DNA of 64,000 nucleotides, from the NCBI RefSeq assembly GCF_035917455.1, contig NZ_CP109078.1:1550001-1614000 (forward strand), read 5' to 3'. The notes under the pieces were generated by a model. It had not been told where the DNA came from. It ran no database searches and was given only the letters and a program-made list of their open reading frames with translations. This DNA comes from Micromonospora sp. NBC_01796 (GTDB taxonomy: Bacteria > Actinomycetota > Actinomycetes > Mycobacteriales > Micromonosporaceae). The translations under genes and the position numbers were made by a program. Each line of letters starts with the position of its first letter. Position 1 is the stretch's first letter. This document shows positions 33,187 through 48,112 of the stretch, piece by piece.

Positions 33187-33240
33187 GCGTAGCTCCTTGG
33201 AAGGATCAACTGACGAGTAGCCTCCCTGAAGAATGTACTA

Positions 33241-33253
33241 ACTTTTCGAAAGT
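33241..33253. promoter_or_regulatory. HxlR-type operator ACTTT-N3-AAAGT
   Basis: acttttcgaaagt is a 5+3+5 dyad in the 78-bp AT-rich divergent promoter of the QorB-like and HxlR genes, 12 bp upstream of the HxlR start. Likely bound by HxlR to control both genes. Confidence 0.5.
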
Positions 33254-33264
33254 GCCGAGTAATA

Positions 33265-33696
33265 GTGAGCACCTTCACTAACGACAGCGCCCTGGTCACG
33301 GCTACCGTAGTCACCATGGTTGACTCCACCCCCGCCGAAGACGGGTACGACGGCGACGACGCGATGATCGCCGACGTCTTCGCCCGCGACTGCTCCTCCC
33401 GGCGCATCGTGGAGAACATGGCCGGCAAATGGGGCATGCTCGCCCTGGCCGCACTGCACGAGGGGTCGTACCGCTTCAACGCCCTGCGCCGCCGGGTCGA
33501 CGGGGTCAGCGAGAAGATGCTCTCCCAGACCCTCCAGGGGCTGGAACGCGACGGCCTGGTCCTGCGCGACGTGCAGGCCACCATCCCCCCGCACGTCGAA
33601 TACAGCCTGACCCCGTTCGGCGAACGCGTTGCCGCCAAGATCGTGGACCTGATCGAGCTGGTGCAGGACGAGGTCAACGCCACCAGCTCCCGCTAG
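33265..33696 (+). CDS. HxlR family transcriptional regulator (QorR-like)
   Basis: 143 residues from GTG 33265 (an internal ATG at 33316 would also preserve the domain). HxlR core: CSSRRIVENMAGKWGMLALA, RFNALRRRVDGVSEKMLSQTL recognition region and wing VEYSLTPFGE. A Cys precedes the winged helix, as in redox-sensing QorR/YodB proteins, so thiol-based sensing of quinones or oxidants is plausible. Confidence 0.9.
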   Translation: MSTFTNDSALVTATVVTMVDSTPAEDGYDGDDAMIADVFARDCSSRRIVENMAGKWGMLALAALHEGSYRFNALRRRVDGVSEKMLSQTLQGLERDGLVLRDVQATIPPHVEYSLTPFGERVAAKIVDLIELVQDEVNATSSR

Positions 33697-33725
33697 GTTT
33701 CCCGGAGGCATCGACCCCCGGCTCG

Positions 33726-34157
33726 TCAGTCGATCGACCCGGAGAGCTGTAGCTGTCCGGTGCCGTCACCGCCACCGGCGCCCTGGGTGAACAGCTTCCC
33801 GTCGACCGTGGCGACCGCCCTGACGTCTCCGGAGCCGTGCCTGACCACCAGCTTCCACGAGCCCGACTCGATCCGGAACGTCTTCTCCCACGGCAGCTTC
33901 GCCGCCTTCTCCTCCACGGCCTCGCCGTTGACCTCGTAGCTGACGTTCTCCAGTCTGGCCGTCCCGGTCATCGAAAGGACCAGGGTGTGCGCCTCTCTCG
34001 AGGGTGCCGACGTGGCCTGGATGGACGGTTCCAGCGGGGCGTCCGTCGCGGATGCCGGGGCGCCCGGGGCACGGGTTTCCGGAGAGGTGTCGGTACAGCC
34101 GGCGACGGCGGCGAGCAGCAGGATCGACACGGCGAGTCGGGCGGTGGCTGGCTTCAT
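33726..34157 (-). CDS. MmpS-like lipoprotein
   Basis: 143 residues from ATG 34157. Lipobox LAAVAGC (Cys21), Thr/Pro/Ala linker to about residue 55, then a beta-sandwich-like domain whose pattern (VSYEVNG, LPWEKTF, GSWKLVVRHGSGDV, ATVDGKLF) resembles MmpS-type transport accessory proteins. No MmpL transporter is adjacent. Anchored at the outer face of the membrane. Confidence 0.72.
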   Translation of the reverse strand: MKPATARLAVSILLLAAVAGCTDTSPETRAPGAPASATDAPLEPSIQATSAPSREAHTLVLSMTGTARLENVSYEVNGEAVEEKAAKLPWEKTFRIESGSWKLVVRHGSGDVRAVATVDGKLFTQGAGGGDGTGQLQLSGSID

Positions 34158-34228
34158 CGATTGCCTCACCAGTGTGGAGGGATGATCCGGAGTCGCCCGC
34201 CACGGTATCGGGGCTTGCTGAACAATTG

Positions 34229-34254
34229 CCCCTACCTGGCAGGTTCCGGACGCC
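34229..34254. repeat. 26-bp direct repeat, left copy
   Basis: This copy and 34685-34710 agree at 24 of 26 positions, starting cccctacc(t/c)ggcaggttc. It contains the dyad acctg-g-caggt. The pair flanks the small gene at 34330-34680, this copy lying in the divergent promoter region. Confidence 0.7.
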
Positions 34255-34329
34255 TCCGTGCAGGAACAGCGGCCAAGCACCAGACTGACAACGCCGTAGA
34301 ATGACGCCGCCTGGTATCGGAGGAACGCC

Positions 34330-34680
34330 GTGGGCTACAGGGAACGACGGGCCGAGATGCTCGCCACCAAGGCGGCACCGCATCTGGAGCCCGGCGAGCA
34401 GATCCAGACCGGATTCATGACGCTGACCGGTTGGAGCATCTTCACGGTGCCGGCGGAGACGTTCGTGGTCACCGACCGCGCCATCCTCGTCATGGGCCGC
34501 GCCGGGGTATACCGCCTCCCGCGCAACTCCTGGTTCGGCAAACCGACCGGGATCTACTACAGGTTCCAGCTCGACCGCTCGTACAGGGTGCACCGGCAGT
34601 GGTACCAGGAGGTCATCGCCGCCGACGAGGCGCTGCGCGAGATGCAGACCCGCGACGACCCGGCGGCCGGCGAGCACTGA
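34330..34680 (+). CDS. Small PH-like protein of unknown function
   Basis: 116 residues from GTG 34330 (GGAGGAAC about 6-13 nt upstream). Sequence pattern AAPHLEPGEQIQTGFMTLTG ... FVVTDRAILVM ... YRLPRNSWF resembles bacterial PH-domain (bPH) proteins that start with a helix-strand EQI element. No membrane segment of full length. Flanked by a 26-bp direct repeat. Confidence 0.65.
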   Translation: MGYRERRAEMLATKAAPHLEPGEQIQTGFMTLTGWSIFTVPAETFVVTDRAILVMGRAGVYRLPRNSWFGKPTGIYYRFQLDRSYRVHRQWYQEVIAADEALREMQTRDDPAAGEH

Positions 34681-34684
34681 ACCA

Positions 34685-34710
34685 CCCCTACCCGGCAGGT
34701 TCCCGACGCC
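34685..34710. repeat. 26-bp direct repeat, right copy
   Basis: Begins 4 bp after the stop codon of the PH-like gene; 24/26 identity with 34229-34254. In this copy the inner dyad is acccg-g-caggt, one base less symmetric. Confidence 0.7.
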
Positions 34711-34788
34711 CTGCCCCGACCGCGGTCACACGGCCTGCACGAGCACACCCGCGGCTCACCCACCACGATGCACCCCGCCCCAGGCCCC

Positions 34789-34797
34789 AAAAAAAAA
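34789..34797. other. A9 homopolymer tract upstream of an MDMPI-fold gene
   Basis: Nine consecutive A residues in DNA of roughly 70% GC, 41 bp before the GTG at 34838. It could be an UP-like promoter element or a slippage-prone site. No function shown. Confidence 0.4.
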
Positions 34798-34837
34798 TGG
34801 GTTCCGGTTGTCGGAGCGGAGGTGGTAGACAGCCGTC

Positions 34838-35617
34838 GTGGCAAAGACCCTGGAGTTCCCCGCGCTGCTGCGGCTGATCGACGAACGCGCGACCGCCTTC
34901 CGCGCGGCGGTTCTGTCCGCACCCAGCCTCGATCTACCGGTGCCGACCTGCCCCGGGTGGACGCTGCTGGACCTGGTGGAACACCTGGGCAAGGGCCAGC
35001 GCAAATGGGCCGCCGTCGTCAACGCCGGTCCGGCCGCCGCTCCCCCGGCGGAGTTCGCGCCGGACGGCCTCGCGCCCGCACCTCGGGAGCGCGAAGCCCT
35101 GCTGACCTGGTGGGACGACTCCACCGCGCGGCTACTGAACGCGCTGCGCGAGGCCGGCCCGGATCGCGGCTGCTGGACGTGGTGGGGTGTGTCGGAGTCG
35201 CCGCAGACCGCCGGTGCCGTCGCCCGGCACCGGGTCCAGGAGGTCGCGGTCCACACCTACGACGCCCAGATCACCCAGGGCGCCCCGCACCCGCTGCCGG
35301 AGGACGTGGCGCTCGACGGTGTGGACGAGTTCCTGACCACCTGCTGCGCGACCACGATCGCCTGGCCGCACAAGCCGGCCGACCTCGACTTCCACGCCAT
35401 CGAGGGCCGCTCCTGGCGCCTCTCGCTCGACGCCGAGGGTGCACGGCCAACCCGCCTCCCCACCAGCGAGGGCCTGGACGCGCCCGCCGCCTCCGCTCGG
35501 GCCACGGCCAGTGACGTGGTCCTCTGGCTCTACAACCGCATCCCGCTCGACTCCCTGGAGCTGCGCGGCGACGGACGCGTCTTCGAACTGCTCCGCGACT
35601 GGAACCCGGACGAGTAG
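34838..35617 (+). CDS. Maleylpyruvate isomerase family (MDMPI/DinB-fold) mycothiol-dependent protein
   Basis: 259 residues from GTG 34838. N-terminal four-helix domain with VPTCPGWTLLDLVEHLGKGQRKW (the MDMPI_N signature, His in LVEHLG) and VARHRVQEVAVHTYDAQ, providing the metal-binding histidines. C-terminal SCP2-like segment ends DVVLWLYNRIP ... LLRDW. Family members are mycothiol-dependent transferases or isomerases; substrate unknown. Confidence 0.87.
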   Translation: MAKTLEFPALLRLIDERATAFRAAVLSAPSLDLPVPTCPGWTLLDLVEHLGKGQRKWAAVVNAGPAAAPPAEFAPDGLAPAPREREALLTWWDDSTARLLNALREAGPDRGCWTWWGVSESPQTAGAVARHRVQEVAVHTYDAQITQGAPHPLPEDVALDGVDEFLTTCCATTIAWPHKPADLDFHAIEGRSWRLSLDAEGARPTRLPTSEGLDAPAASARATASDVVLWLYNRIPLDSLELRGDGRVFELLRDWNPDE

Positions 35618-35626
35618 GACAACAGC

Positions 35627-35884
35627 TCAGCGCGTCAGGCGGCGGGCGCAGGGGCCGTCGTGGTCGGCGCGGAGCAGGCAGCGCCGGCCCGCACCCAGCA
35701 GCCGGTCACAGAAAACCCGATGATGTACGCGCTGCTCGTCCTCGTACGACACGGTGATCTCACCGGGGTCCACCAGCGGCAGCAACCGCAGGGACCGACC
35801 CACCACCCGGGCCAGACGCTGGGCGCCGGCCAGGTCGCGGGCAAGGATCGGCAGGCGTACGACAAAACGCTCCCGGTCGGCCAT
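35627..35884 (-). CDS. Small hypothetical protein coupled to a DivIVA-like gene
   Basis: 85 residues. It starts at ATG 35884 inside the ATGA overlap with the preceding DivIVA-type gene. Basic, with the strand-like RFVVRLPILARDLAGAQRLARVVGR at its start and two Cys (FCDRLLG, CLLRAD) in the C-terminal part. Family not recognised; translational coupling supports it being real. Confidence 0.62.
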   Translation of the reverse strand: MADRERFVVRLPILARDLAGAQRLARVVGRSLRLLPLVDPGEITVSYEDEQRVHHRVFCDRLLGAGRRCLLRADHDGPCARRLTR

Positions 35885-36198
35885 CAGTAGCGCTCCGAGA
35901 CGTTCGCCGTACGAGATTGGCGCGACTGCCACTGACGCAGCGCCACCTTGACCCGGATCGTCTCGTCCCTGCTCTTGGCCAGCTCGTCGTAGAGGCCGGT
36001 CATGTCGGTGGCGACCCGATCCAGGAACTCCCGTACCTCGTCCGGGTCGAGCCCGCGCCGCCGCCCGAACCAACCGACCGTACGGAACCGCCGCCCGCGC
36101 ACCTGCCACGGCCGCAACGGCGCGTACGCCCTGGACCGGTAGTGGACGCCCCTGCTCTCCTGCTCGGTCCCACGAAACCGTGCCAAAAAGTTGCGCAT
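35884..36198 (-). CDS. DivIVA domain-containing protein
   Basis: 104 residues from ATG 36198. Basic N-terminus (MRNFLARFRG), then a short DivIVA-type coiled-coil motif with the GLDPDEVREFLDRVATDMTG signature (typically polar localisation or cytoskeletal scaffolding) and a short helical tail. Much shorter than Wag31/DivIVA, so an accessory DivIVA-like protein. Operon with the 85-residue gene downstream. Confidence 0.78.
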   Translation of the reverse strand: MRNFLARFRGTEQESRGVHYRSRAYAPLRPWQVRGRRFRTVGWFGRRRGLDPDEVREFLDRVATDMTGLYDELAKSRDETIRVKVALRQWQSRQSRTANVSERY

Positions 36199-36536
36199 TC
36201 CTGTGCCTGCCTTCCGGTTCGGATTGGGTCTGGAAGGGGCGGCCCGCCCGTCCGCCGCGAACGGGCGGACCACCCCGCCCCACCACCGCAGCCTCGATCG
36301 GCAGTACGACAGCAGGGCTGCTCATCGGTTGTGCGAGTTGAATTGATCTATGCCAAATGATGATCAGCTATCCACGGTGGTCATCGTCTTGGGAGCCATC
36401 CTGTGGCAGGATGATTCGAGAGCGCAACGTTTCAGCAAAAGAAACCGCGCCAGCACATTGACTTCTTTTACTGCAACCGATACGTGTTGCAGGAGCCACC
36501 CGACGAGTGTTCAGTTTGGAACTGGGGAGCGATCAA
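36199..36536. promoter_or_regulatory. Intergenic region with promoter and CTGCAA-N10-TTGCAG operator for the XRE gene
   Basis: 338-bp gap. A GC hairpin (ccgcccgt ... acgggcgg) sits near 36245-36271. TTGACT (36458-36463) and TACGTG (36481-36486) are 17 bp apart. ctgcaa (36471-36476) and ttgcag (36487-36492) form a perfect 6+10+6 dyad covering the -10, a likely XRE operator. No other gene is seen. Confidence 0.5.
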
Positions 36537-37421
36537 ATGCCCGAAGAGATCGGTTCGACCGTCCCGCGCCGCCAGCTCGGCCGGCTGCTGCGCCAGTACC
36601 GCACCGAGGCGCACGTGACGCTTGACGCGGCGGCCGAAGCGCTCGAATACAGCCGCCAGAAGATCTGGCGGATCGAGAGCGGCATGGGCGCCGTACGCGG
36701 CCTGGACGTCAAGGCGATGTGCGAGTTGTACAGCGTCTCCCCCGAGGTGACCGACGCCCTGCGCGGCCTCGCCTCCGAGACGAAGTCGAAGGGCTGGTGG
36801 CACGCGTACGGCGACGCCGTCCCGAGTTGGTTCGAGCTGTACGTCGGCCTGGAGTCGGCCGCCTCCCGCCTACGCGGCTACGACGAGTCCCTGATCACCG
36901 GCATCCTCCAAACCAAGGAGTACGCCCAAGCCCTCTTCCGGCTCGACCGGCCGACGATGAGCGACGAGGAGCAGGAGCGTCTGGCAGAGGTGCGGTTGCA
37001 GCGGCAGGCGCTGCTGACCCGGCGGTTGCCGAAGCCACCGCGCCTGGAGGTGGTGCTCTCGGAGGCGGTACTGCGGCGTGGCGTCGGAGGAACCGCAGTG
37101 ATGGCAGGTCAGCTCCGGCGGCTGCTGGAAATCGCTGACCTGCCCAACGTCTTGCTTCGGGTGCTGCCGTTCGCGGCCGGGGCACATGCCGGCGCGGTAG
37201 CCGGAACCTTTGTGATCCTGGACTTCCCGCCCGAGAAGGGGCGAGCGGTTCCCGAGCCATCCGTCGTCTACAGCGAGGCCCTGACCGGGTCTCTCTACCT
37301 GGACAAGCCCGACGAGCTGACGGCCTACCAGGACACCTGGAACGGCTTAGCCAGAAGGGCTCTGGATGAGGGACAATCGAAGCACATGATCAACCGGCTC
37401 GTTGGGGAGATGGAACGATGA
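36537..37421 (+). CDS. XRE family regulator with DUF5753-type sensor domain
   Basis: 294 residues from ATG 36537 (GGGGAG 8 nt upstream). N-terminal helix-turn-helix (RRQLGRLLRQYRTEAHVTLD; ALEYSRQKIWRIESG), then the ~180-residue DUF5753 domain (SWFELYVGLESAASRLRGYD; ITGILQTKEYAQALF; PEPSVVYSEALTG). Overlaps a DUF397 gene by 4 bp (ATGA). Such pairs are abundant in actinomycetes, related to WhiJ and developmental control, and act as regulator plus small antagonist. Confidence 0.93.
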   Translation: MPEEIGSTVPRRQLGRLLRQYRTEAHVTLDAAAEALEYSRQKIWRIESGMGAVRGLDVKAMCELYSVSPEVTDALRGLASETKSKGWWHAYGDAVPSWFELYVGLESAASRLRGYDESLITGILQTKEYAQALFRLDRPTMSDEEQERLAEVRLQRQALLTRRLPKPPRLEVVLSEAVLRRGVGGTAVMAGQLRRLLEIADLPNVLLRVLPFAAGAHAGAVAGTFVILDFPPEKGRAVPEPSVVYSEALTGSLYLDKPDELTAYQDTWNGLARRALDEGQSKHMINRLVGEMER

Positions 37422-37621
37422 CTGACCTGAGCGGTGCACGCTGGCGCAAGAGCACCCGCAGCGGCGGCAACGGCGGCGCCTGCGTAGAGGTCGCCACCAA
37501 CCTGCCCGACGTAGTGGCCGTACGCGACAGCAAGGACCCTTACGGCGTGGCCTTGACCTTCGCGCCGAACCAGTGGGTCGACTTCGTCGCAGCCATCAAG
37601 ATCGCCCATCTCGACCGCTAA
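37418..37621 (+). CDS. DUF397 small protein
   Basis: 67 residues. WRKSTRSGGNGGACVEVA, VAVRDSKDP and the closing W-x-FVAAI segment are the DUF397 hallmark. Translationally coupled to the XRE regulator and expected to modulate it. Confidence 0.94.
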   Translation: MTDLSGARWRKSTRSGGNGGACVEVATNLPDVVAVRDSKDPYGVALTFAPNQWVDFVAAIKIAHLDR

Positions 37622-37758
37622 CCAATCGGCACGTCGCACATACTGTGGGAGGCGTGGCGAGATGCTCATACGCTCGACGCTGCCGGCGGTGCCGGCGGTG
37701 CCGATTCGGAAGACGAAATACCCTGAGCATCATCTTGCGGTGAATGCACGAACAATAA

Positions 37759-38352
37759 AAGCTGCTTGGAGCTCGTATTTACACTGCACTGGCCCATAGA
37801 GCCGCAGAGGTTCCCAACCTCGCTGACTGGCTACAGGGATGGGGAACCGTCGCGAGTACCGGCGTATCCACGCTCGCCGCGATCGCCGCCTTAGGCCTAC
37901 TACGGCATGAAATTAAGGTCAGGCGAAGCGAGGGTCACGATCGCGACGCATCGCAAGCACGACTCGTCACCGTACGAGTCCAAAGCAAAAGGATCGTCAA
38001 CCACCAAATCCGAGATATCACTGTCACGTTGACCAATCACAGCGCTGGACCCATCTTCGAGATCGAGTTCGGAGCAGTCATCCCCGGCGACCATGACGCA
38101 TGCGGCGCGCTGCGAGACGAGGTAGGGCCAGGCGCTACAGCCATCATTGAGTGGAAATTGAAGCGATCCCTTCGATATGACGAAGAGGGTCACCTCGCCG
38201 CTAGTTTCGACACATATATAACCTTTACGGACACCCTTGGGCTTCGCTGGAATAGGCACGGGCGAGCACAACCAGAACGGCTTATAATTCTCGATTCTCC
38301 ACCACCCGGGTGGAAGCGAATCCGCCTACGCAGACGATCTTCCACCCAATAA
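37759..38352 (+). CDS. Hypothetical single-TM protein, start codon unclear
   Basis: The frame is open from 37759 to TAA at 38350-38352. It encodes an amphipathic segment (LADWLQGWGTVAS), a short membrane segment (TGVSTLAAIAALGLL), RHEIKVRRSEGHDRD, then ~130 residues of strand-rich soluble sequence. The N-terminal pattern is common in small actinobacterial membrane proteins with an outward or cytoplasmic Ig-like domain. There is no ATG or GTG in frame before a TTG at 38029; a CTG start or a 5' truncation is possible. It lies in the lower-GC island just before Gabija. A -10-like TACACT occurs at 37780-37785. Confidence 0.5.
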   Translation, partial: KLLGARIYTALAHRAAEVPNLADWLQGWGTVASTGVSTLAAIAALGLLRHEIKVRRSEGHDRDASQARLVTVRVQSKRIVNHQIRDITVTLTNHSAGPIFEIEFGAVIPGDHDACGALRDEVGPGATAIIEWKLKRSLRYDEEGHLAASFDTYITFTDTLGLRWNRHGRAQPERLIILDSPPPGWKRIRLRRRSSTQ

Positions 38353-38734
38353 CACCCACCAGACCTAGTTCCGGAATTCGCGTGCAACAACTCCCGAAGG
38401 CCGCCGGCACGCCACCGCGCAATCGCTGCCTTTCGTCAGACGAGGCGTGTCAAGGCCCAGGCCTGTGCGAGTCTTCGATGGACGCCAAGCGCCAGCGTCA
38501 GGGAGGACCTGACCCTTACCCGGCAGTCCGGCCGACGTCAGCCCCAGTCTCTGTCGGAAACCCGATATCCCGCCCGATGTACTTCCAAGGGCCGAGTCGT
38601 GGTGCGAACGGATGTACTAATCATTCAAGAGAATGATCTGACCTACACGACATCCGGCCAGAAATCAAACCACAAATCCTCTCGCGGGTCGTCTCCCGGT
38701 GGCGCTAGCGTAGCCACCTCGGAAGGAGGCCGGC
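38353..38734. other. Lower-GC intergenic region upstream of gajA
   Basis: 382 bp without a supported gene; short frames here lack homology-like patterns. The only clear signal is the strong ribosome-binding site ggaaggagg (38721-38729), 5 nt before the gajA ATG. No convincing -35/-10 pair. Confidence 0.5.
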
Positions 38735-40342
38735 ATGCGACTTTCTCGACTGACCGTTGTCAACTACGCACGCATACCCGACCTGGACCTATCAATGGGA
38801 CAGCATGTCGTGCTTGTGGGGCCCAACGACGTTGGCAAGACCTGCATCCTGAGATGCATTCATTTTGCGCTCGGCGCCACCATCGCCAGCCTTTACCAAT
38901 CGATCCTGCCTTCAGACATCGCCGATCCCGCCAAGGCCCTTCGAATCGCCGTCGATCTGGTAGATTTCAATCAGAACGAAAAGGCCCTCTTTCCCGACGA
39001 GATCACCGTGGACCCTGACGGATCACAAAGGTTACGGATTTGCGTCGAGGCGGAAGGGCTTCCTGGCGATGGAGCCGATCTTGCCATTCGGAGATACTTC
39101 CCTGAATCCGGCCACCTTCGGGCGCCAACAAGACAACAATTAGCGGGTGTCGGCTGGCACTATCTTCCGGCAGTGCGTTCAGGAGGCGCCGAGGGCGTCG
39201 AGGGTAGGGCGAGCGGATTGCGCAGCCTCCTTCAAACGGTCGACCTAGGCGATGAACGCAAAAAGCTCGGCGAGACACTAGAAGAACTCAACAGCGACCT
39301 CAACGAATCGAAGACGCTGATGGACCTACGTGTCAAAATGGCCGAGCACCTATCGTTAGCGACCGCTCGACAGGTAACCAAGGACGACCTAGTGTTCCGC
39401 TCGGCGGCGACCCCGGACGAGATGGTTCGAATCCTCAATCTACTTCTGAATAGGGCCGACGGTTTGCGGCCACTCAGCGAGCAGTCAGACGGCATGAATG
39501 CACTTGCCGCGATGGCATTTTATGACCTTTCGTCTACAGCCTCCAACATCGTCGCTATCGACGAACCTGAGACCCACCTCCATCCTGCCGCCCAAAGGGC
39601 GCTGGCGGACTTACTTGCATCAGGAAAAAACCAGAAGGTGATCTCGACACACTCGCCCTTTATTGTTCAGCGGTTCGATCCGGAGTGGATCGTGGCATTT
39701 ACCGCGAGTCGCGAGTGCAGACAGCTTCAACCAGGCCTGTTAAGCAAGACTGACAAGGTCATGGCGCAATGGTGGACGGGGTCGAAGCTGGAACCCCTTA
39801 CAGCTAGCCGTATAGTATTCGTGGAGGGCTTGGCTGACCGGATAATACTCGAAGCTTGCGCTCGAGCTGCGAATATCAGCCTTGATCGCCGGTCAATTTC
39901 GATCGTTGAACTTGGGGGAGCCACCGCCTTCGGTCAGGCGAATCGCTTTTTCGGACGTGGCGGTTTCGGCGCCGATGTTGCTGGTCTCGTGGACGCCGAC
40001 GCCGAACACATCTGGGCGAAGGACCTCTTAGTAGATATCGCCGATCTCTCGCAACACGCCATTTATGTCTCCCGGGACGATCTAGAAGCAGAGTACGTCA
40101 GGGCATTGGGCGCCCAGGATACCGTCGCAATACTGGTCTCATCCGGCGCCTTCACAAGGCAACAGATATTGAATTTCCGCTCCGTACCAGCGATGGCCGA
40201 CCTTAAAGATTTGGATGTAATCGACTTCTGCCGGAAGAACAAAGTACAAGCAGCACTAGCTGTGTCGACTTCGATTTCGGAGTCGCATGTCAAGCAGATG
40301 CAAGGGATGAACGACCTACTAGAAGACATTAAGGCATTCTGA
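38735..40342 (+). CDS. gajA: GajA: Gabija OLD-family ATPase/TOPRIM nuclease
   Basis: 535 residues. ABC-type ATPase half: Walker A GPNDVGKT (29-36), signature LSEQSDGMNA (247-256), Walker B NIVAIDEPETH (271-281), STHSPF switch (304-309). TOPRIM half: Glu364 in VFVEG, Asp420-x-Asp422 in LVDADAEH and DDLEAEY (448-454). In Gabija, GajA is a nucleotide-sensing DNA endonuclease that nicks phage DNA and assembles with GajB. Adjacent helicase with TGATG overlap supports the assignment over a stand-alone OLD protein. DNA here is visibly lower in GC than its surroundings, suggesting transfer. Confidence 0.9.
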   Translation: MRLSRLTVVNYARIPDLDLSMGQHVVLVGPNDVGKTCILRCIHFALGATIASLYQSILPSDIADPAKALRIAVDLVDFNQNEKALFPDEITVDPDGSQRLRICVEAEGLPGDGADLAIRRYFPESGHLRAPTRQQLAGVGWHYLPAVRSGGAEGVEGRASGLRSLLQTVDLGDERKKLGETLEELNSDLNESKTLMDLRVKMAEHLSLATARQVTKDDLVFRSAATPDEMVRILNLLLNRADGLRPLSEQSDGMNALAAMAFYDLSSTASNIVAIDEPETHLHPAAQRALADLLASGKNQKVISTHSPFIVQRFDPEWIVAFTASRECRQLQPGLLSKTDKVMAQWWTGSKLEPLTASRIVFVEGLADRIILEACARAANISLDRRSISIVELGGATAFGQANRFFGRGGFGADVAGLVDADAEHIWAKDLLVDIADLSQHAIYVSRDDLEAEYVRALGAQDTVAILVSSGAFTRQQILNFRSVPAMADLKDLDVIDFCRKNKVQAALAVSTSISESHVKQMQGMNDLLEDIKAF

Positions 40343-42036
40343 TGACGTTGACTGGCGAATACCCGGCCGAAAAAGCGAGCCTTTTGGATGAGCCGCATGG
40401 CAACCTTGTGCTATTGGCACCGCCGGGTTGCGGCAAGACTGAAGCGCTTGCCCTCCGCGCGATGGGACTGATCGAGAGCAAGCGAGTAACAGCACCCAAC
40501 AAGCTCCTCGCGCTAGCCTTCTCGAACAGGGCCCGAGACAATATTGGAGGTCGAATCCGGCAGCTAACTCAGCCCGCCATCTATAGGCAGTTAGTCGATT
40601 TGACCAACTTCCATGGATTAGCAGCTAGAATCTACCAGGCCCATGCCTCGACTATCGGTTTGGACCCAGAGGCGATCATGCCGGAACGCGGTTGGCTCCG
40701 CCAGGTTTTAACCACCCTGTCCGACCACCATCCTACCCGCCAAGCCGCGATGGACACACTGACGCGCGTGAAGTTACAGCCTCTTTCCGATGAGGAAATC
40801 GCGTCAGAGTTGGAGCGCTCAGGAAACGACCTGGCTATCACGGCCGAACGGATCAGGCACGACAGCCGCAGGCTAGACTATTCTGACCTCCTTAGACACG
40901 CCCAGCGCATACTGCTCAACGAAGGAGTTGCCGAATTGTACGCGCTGCACTACAGCGCGATCATAGTGGATGAATTTCAGGACTTATCCCCCCAACAACT
41001 TTCCATTGTCTCTTCGATCTCTCGCAACAACGTGACCTACGCAGGCGATTTGGGGCAAGCGATCTATTCGTTCACTGGAGCCGACCCAGAAGCTGTCCTT
41101 GCCACCCTTCGAAGGCTTCCGGACGTGCGGATCATTGAGTTCACCGAATCGTACCGGTCCTCACCTGCGGTCTTGGATGTCTTGAACGCAGTCGGAAAGC
41201 CGCTTGGTCTACTGGAGGTTCGGAGCGCGGAACCAGCGACATGGAAGCTCGGTGGCTTCTCCGGTGCGGCCGCTTATGTGACCCCAGAAGCCGAAGCTCA
41301 CTTCGTGATCAATTCTGCCAAACTCATTCTCGATCACAACCCTAACGCATCCGTGGGAGCGATCTCGCGCGCTGGCTACCGACGAAAAGCACTTGACCAA
41401 CTATTGAAGGAATTTTCGGCGACTCACCCCGTCTTCGTTTGGGATAGCCCAGTACACCGGCCAGATATTCTCCGAATACTTCGGAAGGAAATGGCGCGGA
41501 TCCGACCCTTCGGCGGAAGCCAGCAGGAGCAGCTTGAGCAGTTGAAACAAGCATCCATTGCCGCGTTTGAGCCATCTGACGTTGAGTCGATTGACGACGT
41601 TCAGGAGGCTTGCGCATTTCTGGCTGACCGCGTTCAAGAAGGATCTAGCGTTGTCACTGCCCTGGATGCAATAGGTGCGTCGGGGAATCCTGAGCGGACG
41701 GTCGGGCCAGGCCTCCACGTCCTGAACGCCCATATCGGCAAGGGTCAACAGTTCGACTGGGTGTTCGTCATCGGCTTGGAAGAGGGCCATGTGCCCATGT
41801 TCCTCGCGAAGACAGACGACGAAATCACAGAGGAACACAGGGCACTTGTAGTCATGGTCTCTCGCGCCAGACACGGAATTGTAGGGACCAGGGCGCTTGA
41901 GACGTCGACAAGATACGGTCCGCGTGCAAGTTCCGCCTCACGGTGGTGGGATGCCTTCGAAAACGCGTCCCGCAATCTGGGCCCAGCGCTTCACCTCAGC
42001 CTTGATGCGCATCTTAATTCCCAGATAAACGGCTGA
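40342..42036 (+). CDS. gajB: GajB: Gabija UvrD-like SF1 helicase
   Basis: 564 residues. Walker A APPGCGKT (26-33), motif Ia region LALAFSNRARDNI, Walker B IIVDEFQDLSPQQ (207-219), motif III YAGDLGQAIYSFTGA (233-247), and late motifs KGQQFDWVFVIGLEEGHVP and VVMVSRARHGI (motifs V/VI). GajB senses DNA ends produced by GajA and hydrolyses nucleotides in the Gabija complex. Start overlaps the GajA stop (TGATG). Slightly longer than the ~500-residue model protein. Confidence 0.9.
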   Translation: MTLTGEYPAEKASLLDEPHGNLVLLAPPGCGKTEALALRAMGLIESKRVTAPNKLLALAFSNRARDNIGGRIRQLTQPAIYRQLVDLTNFHGLAARIYQAHASTIGLDPEAIMPERGWLRQVLTTLSDHHPTRQAAMDTLTRVKLQPLSDEEIASELERSGNDLAITAERIRHDSRRLDYSDLLRHAQRILLNEGVAELYALHYSAIIVDEFQDLSPQQLSIVSSISRNNVTYAGDLGQAIYSFTGADPEAVLATLRRLPDVRIIEFTESYRSSPAVLDVLNAVGKPLGLLEVRSAEPATWKLGGFSGAAAYVTPEAEAHFVINSAKLILDHNPNASVGAISRAGYRRKALDQLLKEFSATHPVFVWDSPVHRPDILRILRKEMARIRPFGGSQQEQLEQLKQASIAAFEPSDVESIDDVQEACAFLADRVQEGSSVVTALDAIGASGNPERTVGPGLHVLNAHIGKGQQFDWVFVIGLEEGHVPMFLAKTDDEITEEHRALVVMVSRARHGIVGTRALETSTRYGPRASSASRWWDAFENASRNLGPALHLSLDAHLNSQING

Positions 42037-42134
42037 CGTCCGACTGCTAGGCAGCGATCTCAGTATCCAGTTTAGGAATACGTGGTCCAGAGAGCGGGAC
42101 AGCGGGTGGGCGTACGGGTGGTTAGGTTGCTGGG

Positions 42135-45100
42135 GTGACTGAGCTGGGGCGGGGGATCTACGAGCATCTGATCACGTACGGGCTGGCTGGTCAGCTCGAC
42201 GGGATCGGGTCTGAGCTGGTGGAACGTACGGACCTGGATCCGGCGGACGCGCACGAGGTGTTGGGGCGGCACATCGCTGCGCTGACCACTCGGGCGCTGC
42301 GTGCGGTCAGCGGCTCCGACCGGGAGAGTCTGGCCCGGCAGGTCGCGATCGCTAACCAGATCGCCGAGACGATCGCGTCGATCGAGCCGCGTGCCGTCGA
42401 CACCGCCGACCAGGTCACCGACGTCCACAAGCTCCTCACCGCCATCGCGGACCCGCCCACCCCACCAGCGAAGCCGACCTTCCCCGTACGTCCGCGCACT
42501 CCCCTGTCCACCGGGGCGCTGCTGGTCAACGGGCGGCACCAGCCGCGCATCGGGCACGAAGTCGCGACCGAGATGGCGTCGGCCGACGAGGTTGACCTGC
42601 TCTGCGCGTTCATCAAGTGGTACGGGCTGCGCCTGGTCGAACGCCCGATCCGGGAGCTGATCGAACGTGGTGGCCGGGTCAGGGTCATCACCACCACCTA
42701 CCTCGGTGCGACGGATCAACGGGCCCTGGACCGGCTGGTCGACTTGGGTGCCGAGGTCAAGGTCTCCTACGAGACCAGGACCACCCGCCTCCACGCCAAA
42801 GCGTGGCTGTTCCGCCGCAACAACGGGGCAAGCACCGCGTACGTCGGATCTTCGAATCTTTCGAAGGCGGCGCTGGTCGACGGCCTGGAGTGGAACATTC
42901 GGGTCTCCAACCTCGAACAGCCCTCGGTCATCAACACCTTCGAGGCGGCCTTCACCGATTACTGGAGCGACCCGGCGTTCGAGCCGTACGACCCGGCCGA
43001 GGACCGGGAGCGGCTGCGTCGGGCGTTGTCGCACGAGCACACCGGCAACGGCACGGTCAGCGAACCCGACGTCGAGATCACCAACATCGACGTCCGACCG
43101 TACGGGTACCAGCGGGAGATCCTGTCCGACCTGGCCGCCGAGCGGCTGGTCCACGGGCGGCACCGCAACCTGGTGGTGATGGCGACCGGCACCGGCAAGA
43201 CCATTGTCGCCGCCCTCGACTACCGGGAGCTGCGACAACGCGGGACCGTCGAGTCGCTGCTGTTCGTCGCCCACCAGGAGCAGATCCTGCGGCAGAGCCG
43301 ATCCGTCTTCCGGCACGTGCTCCGCGACGGAAGTTTCGGTGAGGTCCTGGTCGGGGGCGAGCAACCAACGCAGTGGCGGCACGTTTTCGCCTCGATCCAG
43401 TCGCTACAGAGGCGGGACATCGACCCGACCAGGTACGACATGGTGATCGTGGACGAGTTCCATCATGCCGAGGCGCCGACGTACGCCCGGCTGTTGGAGC
43501 GCGTGGCTCCTCGCGTACTCCTTGGATTGACGGCGACGCCCGACCGGGCTGACGGCGGCGACGTGCGGCGGTGGTTCGACGGACGCACGGCCGTTGAGCT
43601 GCACCTGTGGGAGGCGCTGGAGCGGCAACTGCTCGCGCCGTTCCAGTATTTCGGGCTGCACGACGAGGTTGACCTGTCGACGCTGACGTGGAAACGCGGG
43701 CAGGGTTACGAGACCGCCGACCTGGAGCGGGTCTACACCGGAAACGACGCCCGCGCCCGCTACATCCTGCAAGCCCTGGCCGACAAGGTCGACGTTGGCA
43801 GCATGCGGGCGCTCGGGTTCTGCGTCAGCATCGGGCACGCCGAGTTCATGGCCGAATGGTTCACCCGGGCCGGTGTGCCGGCACGGGCGGTGACGTCGCG
43901 GGTCGATGCCGCGGGCCGCCGCGCGCTGATCGACGCTTTCAAACGCCGAGAGGTACGGGTCCTCTTCACCGTCGACCTGTTCAACGAGGGCGTCGACCTG
44001 CCGATGGTCGACACGATCCTGATGCTCCGCCCGACCGAGAGCGCCACCATTTTCCTCCAGCAGCTCGGCCGTGGGCTGCGCCTGGACGACAACAAAGCGT
44101 GCCTGACCGTGCTCGACTTCATCGGCGGGCAGCACGCCAACTTCCGCTTCGACCTCCGCTGGCGGGCGTTGACCGGGGTCAGCCGGCGGGCGATCGAAGT
44201 CGCCGTACGCGAAGACTTCCCGACCCTGCCGAGCGGCTGTCACGTGGAGCTTGACCGGGTCGCCAAGGAGATCGTGCTGGCGAACCTGCGCAACGCCCTG
44301 CCCAGCTCGACCAAAAACCTGACCTCGGAGCTGCGGGCGCTCGGAGACGTCAGCCTGGCCGAATACCTGCACGAGACCGGGTTGGAGGTCGAAGACCTCT
44401 ACCGGCGTAAGAACATGGGTGGCTGGGTGGGGCTGCGTCGGCTCGCCGGGCTGGAGACTCGCCCGCCCGGCCCGGAGGACCGGGTCCTCGGGCCGGCGAT
44501 CGGCCGGATGCTCCACCTGGACGACCCGGACCGGCTCGGTCTGCTCCGGCAGCTCGCCTCCGGTGAATCACCGGCGCCGGGACGGCTGGCCGACCTGATG
44601 CACCTCAACCTCTGGGGGCCGAAAGTGCCGGCGAGCGAACGGGAGGAGCGGTTGGTCCGGCTCTGGTCGGAGCACCCGGACCGGCAGGCCGAGTTGGGGC
44701 AGCTCTACGGGGTGCTGCGGGAACGGATGCACCGGGTGGTGGGCCCTCCCGCTTCGGCGAGCGTGCCGTTGCGGGTGCACGCGCGGTACAGCCGCAACGA
44801 GGTGTTGGCGGCGTTCGGCGTACCGGATCCGGGGTCGATGCGGGAGGGGGTGAAGTGGGTCGAGGCCGAACAGGCCGACATCTTCTTCGTCACCCTGGTC
44901 AAGTCAGAACAGCACTACTCCCCCACCACCATGTACGCAGACAGGGCCATCACCCCGGACCTGTTCCAGTGGGAGTCGCAGAGCACCACCTCGTCGCTGT
45001 CACCGACCGGGCAGCGCTACGTCAACCACGCCAAGCGTGGATCGAGCGTGCACCTGTTCGTCCGCGAGACCAAGGACCGTGACGGCGACCTCGGGGTGCC

Positions 45101-45230
45101 CGCCTACCTGTACGCGGGAGCGATGGTCTACGAACGGCACACGGGTGATCGGCCGATGCGGATCTTCTGGCGGCTCGACCATGAGCTGCCGGCCGACGTG
45201 TTCCACGCCGCCCGGGTGATCGCCGCCTGA
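42135..45230 (+). CDS. PLD-nuclease / SF2 helicase / DUF3427 fusion protein
   Basis: 1031 residues from GTG 42135. N-terminal helical region (1-120). PLD-like domain with His220-x-Lys222 (RLHAKAWLF) and SSN at 239-241, one HKD half-site, implying dimerisation. SF2 DEAD/DEAH helicase follows: ATGTGKT 350-356, DEFHH 440-444, LTATPDR, then QQLGRGLR. A C-terminal DUF3427-type region ends in a beta-rich domain (LFVRETKDRDGDLGVPAYLYAGAM). Such fusions are frequent in defence islands. GC is normal, so it was not acquired together with the lower-GC Gabija pair, but its position 98 bp downstream suggests shared function or shared transcription. Confidence 0.88.
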   Translation: MTELGRGIYEHLITYGLAGQLDGIGSELVERTDLDPADAHEVLGRHIAALTTRALRAVSGSDRESLARQVAIANQIAETIASIEPRAVDTADQVTDVHKLLTAIADPPTPPAKPTFPVRPRTPLSTGALLVNGRHQPRIGHEVATEMASADEVDLLCAFIKWYGLRLVERPIRELIERGGRVRVITTTYLGATDQRALDRLVDLGAEVKVSYETRTTRLHAKAWLFRRNNGASTAYVGSSNLSKAALVDGLEWNIRVSNLEQPSVINTFEAAFTDYWSDPAFEPYDPAEDRERLRRALSHEHTGNGTVSEPDVEITNIDVRPYGYQREILSDLAAERLVHGRHRNLVVMATGTGKTIVAALDYRELRQRGTVESLLFVAHQEQILRQSRSVFRHVLRDGSFGEVLVGGEQPTQWRHVFASIQSLQRRDIDPTRYDMVIVDEFHHAEAPTYARLLERVAPRVLLGLTATPDRADGGDVRRWFDGRTAVELHLWEALERQLLAPFQYFGLHDEVDLSTLTWKRGQGYETADLERVYTGNDARARYILQALADKVDVGSMRALGFCVSIGHAEFMAEWFTRAGVPARAVTSRVDAAGRRALIDAFKRREVRVLFTVDLFNEGVDLPMVDTILMLRPTESATIFLQQLGRGLRLDDNKACLTVLDFIGGQHANFRFDLRWRALTGVSRRAIEVAVREDFPTLPSGCHVELDRVAKEIVLANLRNALPSSTKNLTSELRALGDVSLAEYLHETGLEVEDLYRRKNMGGWVGLRRLAGLETRPPGPEDRVLGPAIGRMLHLDDPDRLGLLRQLASGESPAPGRLADLMHLNLWGPKVPASEREERLVRLWSEHPDRQAELGQLYGVLRERMHRVVGPPASASVPLRVHARYSRNEVLAAFGVPDPGSMREGVKWVEAEQADIFFVTLVKSEQHYSPTTMYADRAITPDLFQWESQSTTSSLSPTGQRYVNHAKRGSSVHLFVRETKDRDGDLGVPAYLYAGAMVYERHTGDRPMRIFWRLDHELPADVFHAARVIAA

Positions 45231-45246
45231 CCGGCTTCCGGGTCGG

Positions 45247-46092
45247 TTACGACCAGGCGCCGGCCGCAGCGGCCCGAGCGGCGTACGTGTCGAAGTCGAT
45301 CGGGTCCCGGCCGAGGAGTCGCCGTACGGTGTCGGTCGGTTCGGCGAGGTGTCCGGCGCGCATTCCGGCGAACAGGACGTTGAGGGCGGCGGCGGTCTCC
45401 TCCGAATGGCCTTCGGCGAGGAGTTCGGCCCGGTACTCCTCCGGTGTCAGCTCGTCGTACCGAATGGGCCGCCCGGCCGCCTCGGCGATCGTCGCCACGG
45501 CCGCGCCGAAGGTGAGTGCGCGGGGGCCGGAGAGGTCGTACACCTGCCCCTGATATTCGTCCGAGGTCGTGGTCAGGAGCAGGGCGGCGACGTCGGCGAC
45601 GTCCTGGGCGTCGACGAACGGTTCCGGGGTGGCACCGATCGGCAGGGCCAACCGGCCGTCGCGCAGGGGTTGGTGGAACAGGTCCTCGTCGAAGTTCTGG
45701 TTGAAGTTGTTCGGCCGGATGATTGTCCACTCGGCTCCGGAGTCGCGTACGGCCTGCTCCCCGGCGACCATGCCCGGGGAGAAGTCGCCCTCGATCCGGT
45801 CGATTCCGCGCCCGGACAGTGCCAGGAAACGGGTGACGCCGAGTTTTGCCGCCAGGGTGACGAAGTTGTCGGCGGCGGCGGGTTCCTCCGGGGCCATGAG
45901 GTAGACCGCCGAGGCGCCCTCCACGGCCGGTTGCCAGGTGCGCGGATCCGACCAGTCGAACGGGACCTCACCGGAACGGGAGGCAGCCCGGACCCGCGTG
46001 TTGGCGTCCCGGAGCGTACGGACCAGCCGGCGTCCGATCTTGCCGGTGCCGCCGATGACGAGGATGTCGTTCGCGCCTGTTGTCATGTTCAC
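45247..46092 (-). CDS. NmrA-like NAD(P)-binding protein
   Basis: 281 residues; Rossmann motif GGTGKIGRR near residue 14, SRSG after strand 2, and the family region SGRGIDRI ... GEQAVRDSGAEWTIIRPNNF. Similar to actinobacterial NAD(P)H azoreductase / ergot-alkaloid-like reductases. Met at 46092 or 46086 may start. Divergent from an AraC regulator that probably controls it. Confidence 0.87.
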   Translation of the reverse strand: MNMTTGANDILVIGGTGKIGRRLVRTLRDANTRVRAASRSGEVPFDWSDPRTWQPAVEGASAVYLMAPEEPAAADNFVTLAAKLGVTRFLALSGRGIDRIEGDFSPGMVAGEQAVRDSGAEWTIIRPNNFNQNFDEDLFHQPLRDGRLALPIGATPEPFVDAQDVADVAALLLTTTSDEYQGQVYDLSGPRALTFGAAVATIAEAAGRPIRYDELTPEEYRAELLAEGHSEETAAALNVLFAGMRAGHLAEPTDTVRRLLGRDPIDFDTYAARAAAAGAWS

Positions 46093-46174
46093 CAGTCAAC
46101 CGGCGTGACCACCAATCGGACATGGCCAGCCGTACGCCGGGCATGTTCGATCGTCCGCGACCTATGGTGAAGTC

Positions 46175-47131
46175 ATGGACCCGTTCGACGATCTGCTGCG
46201 TGGCGTACGCGCGGACGGCGCCGCGTTCGGCCGGTCGGTGCTGTCGCCGCCGGGGGCCCTGCGGTTCGTCGGCGGCGCGCCCCTGACCCTGTGCGTGCCG
46301 CTGCGCGGCGAGGGTTGGATCAGCCACCCGACCGGCGAGAAGCCACGTCAGGTACGGCTCGGTGAGGCGGTTGTCGTACGTGGACCGGAGCCGTTCGTGT
46401 TCTCCACCGAACCCCTGTCCGAGTTTGGGCCGGGACAGGTCCGGGACGTGCACTGCGGGCAGTCGCGGACGGCCGGGGCACCGGACGGGGATCCGGCCGA
46501 GCGGTCGGTCCTGCTGGCCGGGGCGTACCACGTCCAGGGTCGGGCGCCGCACCGGCTGTTGGGGGTGCTTCCGCCCGTACTGGTGGTGGCGGACGACCAC
46601 GACTGCGCGTCGCTTCGGGACTACCTCGACTCACAGCTCGGTGCGTGTCGGCCGGGTCGGCAGATCGTCCTGGACCGGATGCTGGACTGGCTGCTGGTCT
46701 GCACCCTGCGCGACTGGTTCGACCAGCCGGGTGCCGAGCCGCCCGACTGGTACCGGGCACTGGGTGACGACACGGTGGGGCTCGTGTTGCGGGCCATGCA
46801 CGAGGCACCGGACCGGCCGTGGACCCTCGCGTCGCTGGCCGCCCGAGCCGGGGTGTCCCGTACGACGTTGGCGAAACGGTTCACGGAGCTGGTGGGTGAG
46901 CCTCCGCTGACGTACCTGACGGACTGGCGGATGACGCTCGCCGCGGACCTGCTGACCGGGTCGACCGCGACGGTTTCCGCCGTGGCGCACCAGGTCGGGT
47001 ACGCGGACGCGTTCGGTTTCAGCGCTGCCTTCAAGCGGATCCACGGGGTGAGTCCGACCGAGCACCGCCGGCTCGCACCTTCCGTGCCCGCCGCACACCG
47101 AACCGCCACCCCCGCCACGTCTGGTACGTGA
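46175..47131 (+). CDS. AraC family transcriptional regulator (cupin-type)
   Basis: 318 residues. N-terminal cupin_6-like domain (RSVLSPPGALRFVGGAPLTL; GEAVVVRGPEPF) and C-terminal AraC double HTH (TLASLAARAGVSRTTLAKRF; VSAVAHQVGYADAFGFSAAFK; GVSPTEHR). Divergent from the NmrA-like reductase, its likely target. Its 3' end forms part of the terminator hairpin. Confidence 0.93.
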   Translation: MDPFDDLLRGVRADGAAFGRSVLSPPGALRFVGGAPLTLCVPLRGEGWISHPTGEKPRQVRLGEAVVVRGPEPFVFSTEPLSEFGPGQVRDVHCGQSRTAGAPDGDPAERSVLLAGAYHVQGRAPHRLLGVLPPVLVVADDHDCASLRDYLDSQLGACRPGRQIVLDRMLDWLLVCTLRDWFDQPGAEPPDWYRALGDDTVGLVLRAMHEAPDRPWTLASLAARAGVSRTTLAKRFTELVGEPPLTYLTDWRMTLAADLLTGSTATVSAVAHQVGYADAFGFSAAFKRIHGVSPTEHRRLAPSVPAAHRTATPATSGT

Positions 47132-47143
47132 CGGGGGTGGCGG
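47103..47143. terminator. Bidirectional stem-loop between convergent genes
   Basis: ccgccacccccg (47103-47114) pairs with cgggggtggcgg (47132-47143), then after one mismatch cacgt (47116-47120) pairs with acgtg (47126-47130) over a ctggt loop. It overlaps the AraC stop codon (47129-47131) and lies 19 bp past the end of the minus-strand HAAS gene. Confidence 0.65.
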
Positions 47144-47161
47144 CCGGTCGGGCCGGGTGGG

Positions 47162-48112
47162 TCAGGCGGTGCGGCGCCGGGTCTTGATGATGCTGTCGAT
47201 GATGTCCCAGACGGTGATGACGGCGATCCCGACGGTGCTGAAGGTGGCGAGGGTGCTGAGGTTGTCGCCCTCGCCGAGCCAGTCGAGGTGTCCGACGAAG
47301 GCCGGGCTGAGCAGTCGGTCGTTGAGCAGGAGCCACGCCACCGGGACCGCGAAGGCCAGGTCGAGCAGGACGTTGATACCGACCAGGGGCCAGGTCCAGT
47401 GCCCGACGCGGTATTTCACGATCTCGAAGCCGGCGCTGATCACCAGCAGACCGATCAGGACCGGAAGCCACGAGTTCCACAACGCCGGGTCGATGATCGG
47501 GATGTTGGTCCCGTTGTCGGTTTGCAGCCACGAGTGGAAGTGCTGCAGGACCAGGTAGGCGATGGTCAGCCCGATCGTGAAGACTGCGGCGATGGCGTCG
47601 GTGAGGCCGATCTCCCGCTTCACCGGTACGGCGGGAAGCTGGTCGACGTTCCACTCGGGCAGACCGAGGGGGGTGTTGGTGCGTTCGGCGATGGCGAATC
47701 CGAGGGTCACCCAGAAGGCGATCTGGACCGCGACCTCGATCGCGACGCCGATCCCGGTGCCGATCGCCCCACCGACAGTTCCGTCGTCGGCGGCGTCGAC
47801 GATCGCGACCACGGTCCCGACAATCGCCGGTACGAAGCTGAGCAGCGTCTTCAGCAGCTTGGCCCAGTGCAGGTAGTACTTCGGGCCGATGAGCTGGAGC
47901 CTGCGGTCGGCGTACCGGGCGGCGAGGCGGTCAGGGTTGCCGAGTTCGGTGAGGACCTCCCGTTCGGCGGCGACGGGGTCCTGCCCGTTGCCGGCCCGGT
48001 CCTCGATCATGTCTTCGATCGACCCGCGCAGCTCGGCGGCGATCTCGTCGCGGCGCTGGGCCGGCACCGATTGCAGGGTCGCGGCGAGGTAGCGGTCGGT
48101 CAGGGTGTTCAT
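47162..48112 (-). CDS. HAAS/permease-prefix-domain membrane protein
   Basis: 316 residues from ATG 48112. The N-terminal ~90-residue HAAS-type domain (DRYLAATLQSVPAQRRDEIAA; LTELGNPDRLAARYADR) is normally found in genes paired with PadR regulators. It is followed by about seven transmembrane segments. Start overlaps the PadR stop (ATGA). Envelope-stress or regulatory role is typical of such pairs but not shown here. Confidence 0.85.
   Translation of the reverse strand: MNTLTDRYLAATLQSVPAQRRDEIAAELRGSIEDMIEDRAGNGQDPVAAEREVLTELGNPDRLAARYADRRLQLIGPKYYLHWAKLLKTLLSFVPAIVGTVVAIVDAADDGTVGGAIGTGIGVAIEVAVQIAFWVTLGFAIAERTNTPLGLPEWNVDQLPAVPVKREIGLTDAIAAVFTIGLTIAYLVLQHFHSWLQTDNGTNIPIIDPALWNSWLPVLIGLLVISAGFEIVKYRVGHWTWPLVGINVLLDLAFAVPVAWLLLNDRLLSPAFVGHLDWLGEGDNLSTLATFSTVGIAVITVWDIIDSIIKTRRRTA

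Follow-up and report, generated by a model that had tools for sequence, protein, structure and literature searches.

A probable Gabija anti-phage system with a compact TOPRIM domain in a variable slot of Micromonospora sp. NBC_01796

Here, we analyze two overlapping genes, gajA and gajB, at positions 38735-42036 of a 64-kb stretch of the genome of Micromonospora sp. NBC_01796 (the whole of which is referred to below as the window). We conclude, with a probability of roughly 0.9, that gajAB is an intact Gabija anti-phage system, that it belongs to an actinobacterial subfamily and that it was horizontally acquired into a defence slot. A preliminary description of this DNA had proposed the Gabija identity of the pair; the compact TOPRIM subfamily and a defence-type neighbour, both described below, were absent from it and are added by the present analysis.

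Results

Identity of the gene pair

The stop codon of gajA and the start codon of gajB meet in the sequence TTCTGATGACG, which contains TGATG, and this junction together with the open reading frame (ORF) coordinates bears out the two overlapping genes initially described. GajA matches the PADLOC model PDLC00075 with 560 bits (E 1.1e-168), its residues 1-533 aligning to the 536-position model, while the second-best GajA model reaches 127 bits and the stand-alone Old model of PADLOC 71.7 bits; its Pfam domains are AAA_21, AAA_15 and OLD-like_TOPRIM. GajB matches PDLC00121 with 544 bits (E 9e-164), the next GajB model scores 157 bits, and PcrA, the best chromosomal-helicase model, scores 123 bits against its own cut-off of 911. 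As controls, PDLC00121 scores 147 bits at its best other site in the window's own genome, and a helicase a few kb from a phospholipase D (PLD)-helicase gene in the relative G023, a helicase that we take to be of the AdnB type, reaches 52 bits on PDLC00121 and 123 on the GajB model that it matches best. Thus, GajA scores best on a GajA model and a UvrD/PcrA/Rep-like helicase gene lies directly downstream, as expected for Gabija, and the GajA and GajB profiles beat those of the stand-alone OLD and UvrD families by hundreds of bits, in agreement with the identity originally proposed. Because gajB is directly 3' of gajA, GajA does not stand alone without a helicase as class 1 OLD proteins do; the tandem UvrD/PcrA/Rep helicase is a feature of class 2 OLD proteins.

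The AlphaFold2 model of GajA (predicted local distance difference test score (pLDDT) 81.6) resembles OLD and GajA structures, and that of GajB (pLDDT 88.8) resembles UvrD/Rep folds; among the matches of the GajB fold search, GajB chains were not singled out. In the predicted GajA model, the C-terminal fold matches class 2 OLD nucleases, with 168 residues aligned to the C-terminal region of BpOLD, and the TOPRIM domain is followed by the C-terminal helical domain that characterizes this class.

A second site in the window's own genome (L002, G000:C1:5548052-5548549) resembles the GajA model in its TOPRIM part alone, with 62 bits, in a 218-aa open frame.

Distribution and pairing of relatives

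At a threshold of 1e-40, the window's own genome is the only one with a PDLC00075 match among 61 genomes (its own and 60 relatives), and at 1e-50 matches occur in 4 of 397 genomes of the order, the window's own included. Four plasmids, two of them from Rhodococcus and the others from Corynebacterium callunae and Mycolicibacterium chubuense, carry GajA relatives with 39-42% identity, each adjoined by an ATP-dependent helicase gene; the remaining 37 matching plasmid records cover less than 80% of the query. In the phage collection, only distant partial OLD matches were found, in 5 records and with 23-25% identity. On the Rhodococcus plasmid pGA1 (L035 1-5905), an annotated type I restriction set (methyltransferase, S subunit and DEAD helicase) lies directly upstream of gajAB, giving another defence cluster around the same pair.

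A scan of genome contigs with the single protein found no relative, while an alignment-based profile scan succeeded. From at least 297 confirmed loci, the best 80 were taken, the first 20 of which belong to the subfamily according to the tree described below; the other 60 are referred to as the outgroup. GajB is encoded directly downstream of GajA in 17 of the 20 subfamily loci and in 7/7 plasmid and whole-genome loci. The 17 include L046, L051, L052 and L058, which a scripted rule had marked as helicase-less because it did not cover their mechanically assigned ORF start or the end of the locus, and in all four of which inspection of the locus shows GajB. An adjoining GajB was not found in three Bifidobacteriaceae loci (L060, L062 and L063). 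GajA of L060 and L062 has a long Lys/Pro/Ala-rich C-terminal tail, and the QSDG stretch before Walker B is gone.

Active-site and helicase motifs

Conservation was assessed in several alignments. For GajA, A5 holds the window and 17 of the 20 subfamily loci (18 rows), leaving out the three Bifidobacteriaceae loci and the seven plasmid and whole-genome copies, and A3 holds the window and these seven copies (8 rows). For GajB, A6 comprises the window's copy and those of 14 of the 17 loci with GajB (15 rows); in the omitted L047, L052 and L057, the start was uncertain or the locus ended.

In GajA, residues K35, D276, E277, E279, H281, H306, E364, D368, D420, D449-L450-E451 and K503 are invariant in 18/18 sequences of A5, and E364, D368, D420, D449-E451 and K503 in 8/8 of A3. 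Together with D422, a complete TOPRIM active site (Glu, DxD, metal-B acid and Lys) is present: E364, D420, D422, D368, D449, E451 and K503. The claim that all key residues are kept, which named GPNDVGKT, DEPETH, E364, D420 and D422, is correct in that all of these are present; it is weakened for D422, which is Asp in only 9 of 18 members. The corresponding residues published for Bacillus cereus GajA (BcGajA) are E379, E383, D432, D434, D511, 513 and K541 (PMC10822852). Profile alignment places D449-E451 on BcGajA D511-E513, and because this segment alone scores 1.4 bits, the equivalence rests on motif and fold. In GajB, the DEXQD box reads DEFQD, and the later helicase motifs are also kept.

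A compact TOPRIM domain

The distance from the DxD to the DLE motif is 29 residues in 17 of the 18 subfamily members and 31 in the remaining one. By contrast, published residue numbers place the first Asp of the DxD and the next metal ligand 79 residues apart in BcGajA, 51 in BpOLD and 47 in TsOLD. Among 12 helicase-paired outgroup OLD proteins, seven have a DLE candidate with a spacing of 66-88, one of which also has a nearer TLE candidate (spacing 57), and five have none by the scripted rule. In BcGajA, the span holds a lysine-rich loop (436-442), which is needed for sequence-specific digestion and the mutation of which renders cutting non-specific, and a basic helix (474-493) (PMC10822852). 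The spacing of 29 residues in the subfamily, against 79 in BcGajA, is too short to accommodate either element.

The subfamily differs from the helicase-paired outgroup also in the metal ligand at position +4, which is Asp (D368) in 18/18 members, Glu in 11/12 helicase-paired outgroup loci and Asp in 23/27 unpaired outgroup loci that show the motif (21/60 outgroup loci were without the motif by the pattern used and not counted; helicase pairing was assigned by the scripted rule). At 531-549 aa, the GajA proteins of the subfamily are near class 1 OLD proteins in length.

Phylogenetic placement

In a midpoint-rooted tree, GajA groups with helicase-paired OLD proteins (Shimodaira-Hasegawa-like approximate likelihood ratio test (SH-aLRT) support 87). 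In this tree, the labels of subfamily rows were set from inspection of the loci and not from the scripted rule, and the outgroup consisted of 38 of the 60 loci (12 with and 26 without helicase), the 22 left out being L074, which is truncated, and the 21 loci in which the pattern used did not show the TOPRIM motif. The window's GajA has no resolved place at the base of the subfamily, and its highest identity in the tree set is 43%.

Alternatively, a class 1-type OLD nuclease with a compact TOPRIM domain and an Asp metal-B ligand might have taken up a UvrD-type helicase separately, such that the pair would work like Gabija without sharing its origin. In favor of this scenario, the best phmmer match of GajA, and thus its best sequence match in the PDB, is class 1 TsOLD (6P74), and both the protein length and the Asp at +4 point in the same direction. 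However, the tree places the subfamily with other helicase-paired OLD proteins, GajA has the C-terminal helical domain that TsOLD has been described to lack, and the DLE motif aligns to that of BcGajA, although this last point is weak on its own. On balance, we consider an independent origin unlikely.

Horizontal acquisition into a variable slot

The pair has a foreign compositional signature. Its guanine-cytosine (GC) content is 56.3% compared to 69.1-73.8% (mean 71.2, standard deviation 1.5) in 16 same-length, non-overlapping tiles outside the region, so that GC is not uniform, and among stretches of the pair's length within the 64 kb, GC is lowest in the one beginning at 38551, on gajAB. 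Likewise, GC at third codon positions is 0.61-0.62 in gajA and gajB versus 0.85-0.90 in six neighbouring genes. The two 60-base counts given previously hold exactly (39241-39300, 53.3%; 42541-42600, 70.0%), and the low-GC island that they were taken to indicate is real; it begins earlier than had been stated, spanning ~37.6 to 42.1 kb and thus including ~1.1 kb 5' of gajA. This leader is probably part of the acquired stretch. Of its ORFs, 38029-38352 (+) has no Pfam match and no match in the 60 relatives at E 0.001, and 37900-38271 (-) has neither a Pfam nor an NCBIfam match.

Comparison with two congeners places the pair in a variable slot. G001 shares the blocks that flank the slot with 93 and 88% identity and has a different 5471 bp between them, with genes for a GntR regulator and, in L013 9839-13933, for two further proteins, one of 1202 aa with tetratricopeptide repeats, for which PADLOC gave nothing convincing, and one of 156 aa, which matched neither Pfam nor PADLOC; these two are candidates for unrecognized defence cargo. 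G002 shares DNA up to 34252 and from 47152 on, with ~270 bases in between (L030 18400-18850), in which 103 bp match the last codons of the PLD-helicase gene (83%, E 7e-27) and 32 bp match 35626-35657, within the gene at 35627-36325 (91%, E 2e-07). These remnants are more readily reconciled with a formerly longer island that was deleted than with an ancestral site that was empty. Altogether, the low GC, a congener with the same flanks and different cargo, a deletion-scarred congener, the sparse distribution and the plasmid-borne relatives support the horizontal acquisition of gajAB that the preliminary description had suggested.

A search of the slot ends (35800-42600) found no direct repeats of ≥16 nt and four imperfect inverted pairs. 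One of these pairs (19 nt, 84%, arms 35802-35820/42325-42343) encloses the slot, its arms lying within the shared flanks, and is taken as chance. Seven two-copy direct repeat families with 70-89% identity lie in 33000-48000, none of them at the slot ends, and no tRNA was found in the window.

Such a history could also have left a recently acquired copy that no longer works, and the low-GC stretch without recognized gene upstream of gajA would be in line with this. As both frames are full length with no internal stops, none of the invariant residues is lost and gajA is preceded by a GGAGG ribosome site, we regard a defunct copy as very unlikely. The chance that gajAB is a DNA-repair pair without a role in defence appears slighter still. 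A role of class 2 OLD proteins in repair was earlier put forward as a speculation (Schiltz 2019, PMC6755086), and the partner is of the UvrD type; by contrast, sparse, foreign, slot-swapped and plasmid-borne genes beside a restriction-type gene would be typical of defence and not of core repair, and Gabija systems built in this way have shown anti-phage activity in tests (PMC10568477, PMC10781630).

Neighbouring genes

98 nt downstream of gajB and on the same strand is a gene for a PLD nuclease-DEAD helicase-DUF3427 protein, a likely type IV restriction enzyme that is not part of Gabija. It shares with the type IV restriction enzyme SauUSI the order of PLD nuclease, helicase and DUF3427 in one chain (PMC3874153); it differs in being a 1031-aa actinobacterial homologue, the type IV role of which is predicted from domains. 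This gene and gajAB form a small defence island. Matches to the PLD-helicase at 1e-100 occur in 10/61 genomes, the window's own included, and the G001 copy is 88% identical at the DNA level, suggesting that the PLD-helicase is resident and gajAB the newcomer in the slot. That the three genes form one composite system, for which the shared strand and short distance might speak, is largely refuted, since a PLD-helicase match (E 1e-8) is found in 0/38 loci within the flanks examined, G001 has the helicase next to a slot without gajAB, and none of the nine other genomes with the helicase has PDLC00075 at 1e-40.

Within the slot, the XRE-DUF5753 and DUF397 genes are probably unrelated to Gabija; a link with these regulators was rejected on the basis of their host-like GC and of many paralogous matches in the two congeners.

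Table 1. Coordinates of gajAB, its motifs and its surroundings in the window
Feature	Position	Strand	Description or evidence
gajA	38735-40342	+	OLD-family ABC ATPase and TOPRIM nuclease, 535 aa, ATG start
gajB	40342-42036	+	UvrD/PcrA/Rep-like superfamily 1 (SF1) helicase, 564 aa, ATG start
TGATG stop/start overlap of gajA and gajB, one base shared	40340-40344	+	Sequence
GajA Walker A GPNDVGKT, residues 29-36	38819-38842	+	K35 in 8/8 (A3) and 18/18 (A5)
GajA Walker B region DEPETH, residues 276-281	39560-39577	+	D276, E277, E279 and H281 in 18/18
TOPRIM E364 and D368, metal ligands	39824-39838	+	Each 18/18; BcGajA reads EGPSE
TOPRIM DxD, D420 and D422	39992-40000	+	D420 in 18/18; D422 Asp in 9/18
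DLE motif, residues 449-451, aligned to BcGajA D511-L512-E513	40079-40087	+	18/18
K503, candidate equivalent of BpOLD K562 and GajA K541	40241-40243	+	18/18; putative equivalence
GajB Walker A APPGCGKTE, residues 26-34	40417-40443	+	A26, P27 and G29-K32 invariant in 8/8 and 15/15
GajB motif II DEFQD, residues 210-214	40969-40983	+	D210, E211, Q213 and D214 invariant in 8/8 and 15/15
PLD nuclease-DEAD helicase-DUF3427 gene	42135-45230	+	Likely type IV restriction enzyme; PADLOC mREase_IV PDLC03659, 907 bits; Pfam ResIII, Helicase_C, DUF3427, PLDc_2
XRE-DUF5753 regulator and DUF397 protein, in slot	36507-37621	+	Host-like GC
Low-GC leader (58.8%) without recognized gene	37622-38734	.	GC, Pfam and relative searches
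Variable slot between blocks shared with G001	36325-42134	.	Shared blocks stop at 36324 and resume at 42135

Discussion

By analogy with B. cereus Gabija, in which a GajA tetramer carries GajB on either side (PMC10781630), we suggest that GajA is likewise tetrameric and associates with GajB. The TOPRIM nuclease would be kept inactive as long as nucleotides are at their normal levels, as described for Gabija, the nuclease of which is freed when nucleotides drop (PMC8136825, PMC10822852). Upon infection, GajA would be released when nucleotides are depleted and/or when phage DNA ends lie unshielded, the GajB ATPase helping to sense this, and would then cut phage DNA; Gabija has been described to act on linear DNA that is unprotected by the host end-processing complex (PMC12407980). 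We infer complex formation, nucleotide control, target and protective effect of gajAB from the family. Because the specificity segment is missing, sequence-specific nicking is the least safe feature of this mechanism to carry over.

The shortened nuclease domain may alter the choice of DNA target. We tentatively propose, at somewhat below even odds, that the actinobacterial PDLC00075 subfamily is a compact Gabija that has an Asp metal-B ligand in place and neither specificity loop nor basic helix in its TOPRIM domain, cuts DNA without the 15-bp preference, and tells phage from self by GajB, DNA ends or nucleotide state alone. A literature search found no description of a compact GajA subfamily, which is no proof of absence; among the papers drawn on, which also include PMC7049728, PMC10482375 does not mention Gabija in its main text. 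The subfamily offers a natural test of how Gabija distinguishes phage from self and, should it prove to protect all the same, would show that Gabija can do without sequence recognition. For the strain itself, gajAB and its restriction-type neighbour are candidates for making it resistant to phages and for limiting its uptake of DNA.

Among known systems, Gabija of B. cereus VD045 (PDB 8SM3, 8JQB and 8X5I) shares with gajAB the two-gene order, the OLD ABC-ATPase with TOPRIM domain and the UvrD-like partner; the fold corresponds over the full length, and E379, D432, D511 and E513 there correspond to E364, D420, D449 and E451 here. By contrast, identity in structure alignments is 12-20%, and BcGajA has E383 in place of D368 as well as the longer DxD-to-DLE spacing. 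In the class 2 OLD proteins BpOLD and XccOLD (C-terminal regions, 6NK8 and 6NJV), E404 and T506 stand in place of D368 and D449. The set E404/T506/E508 was termed absolutely conserved in 2019 (PMC6755086); D368/D449/E451 here do not match it as printed, and BcGajA itself has D511 instead of T506, so that helicase-paired members as a whole are not defined by this set. Class 2 proteins are on average ~50 aa longer than class 1 proteins and have an extra TOPRIM helix, an average that is not a strict definition and that the subfamily, with its length and spacing, does not match. The class 1 OLD protein of Thermus scotoductus (6P74) is alike in its compact length and in the Asp at the +4 metal position (D381), and GajA has its highest structural Z score with this protein. 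Finally, the PDLC00075/PDLC00121 family, which consists mostly of actinobacterial Gabija, matches the pair over the full length and has the same pairing in most relatives, while GajA here is 33-42% identical to these relatives and no close relative was found. PADLOC already has a model for this subfamily, and the pair is therefore filed within an already known kind of system. In other words, gajAB is a genuine but ordinary find, save for its compact TOPRIM domain.

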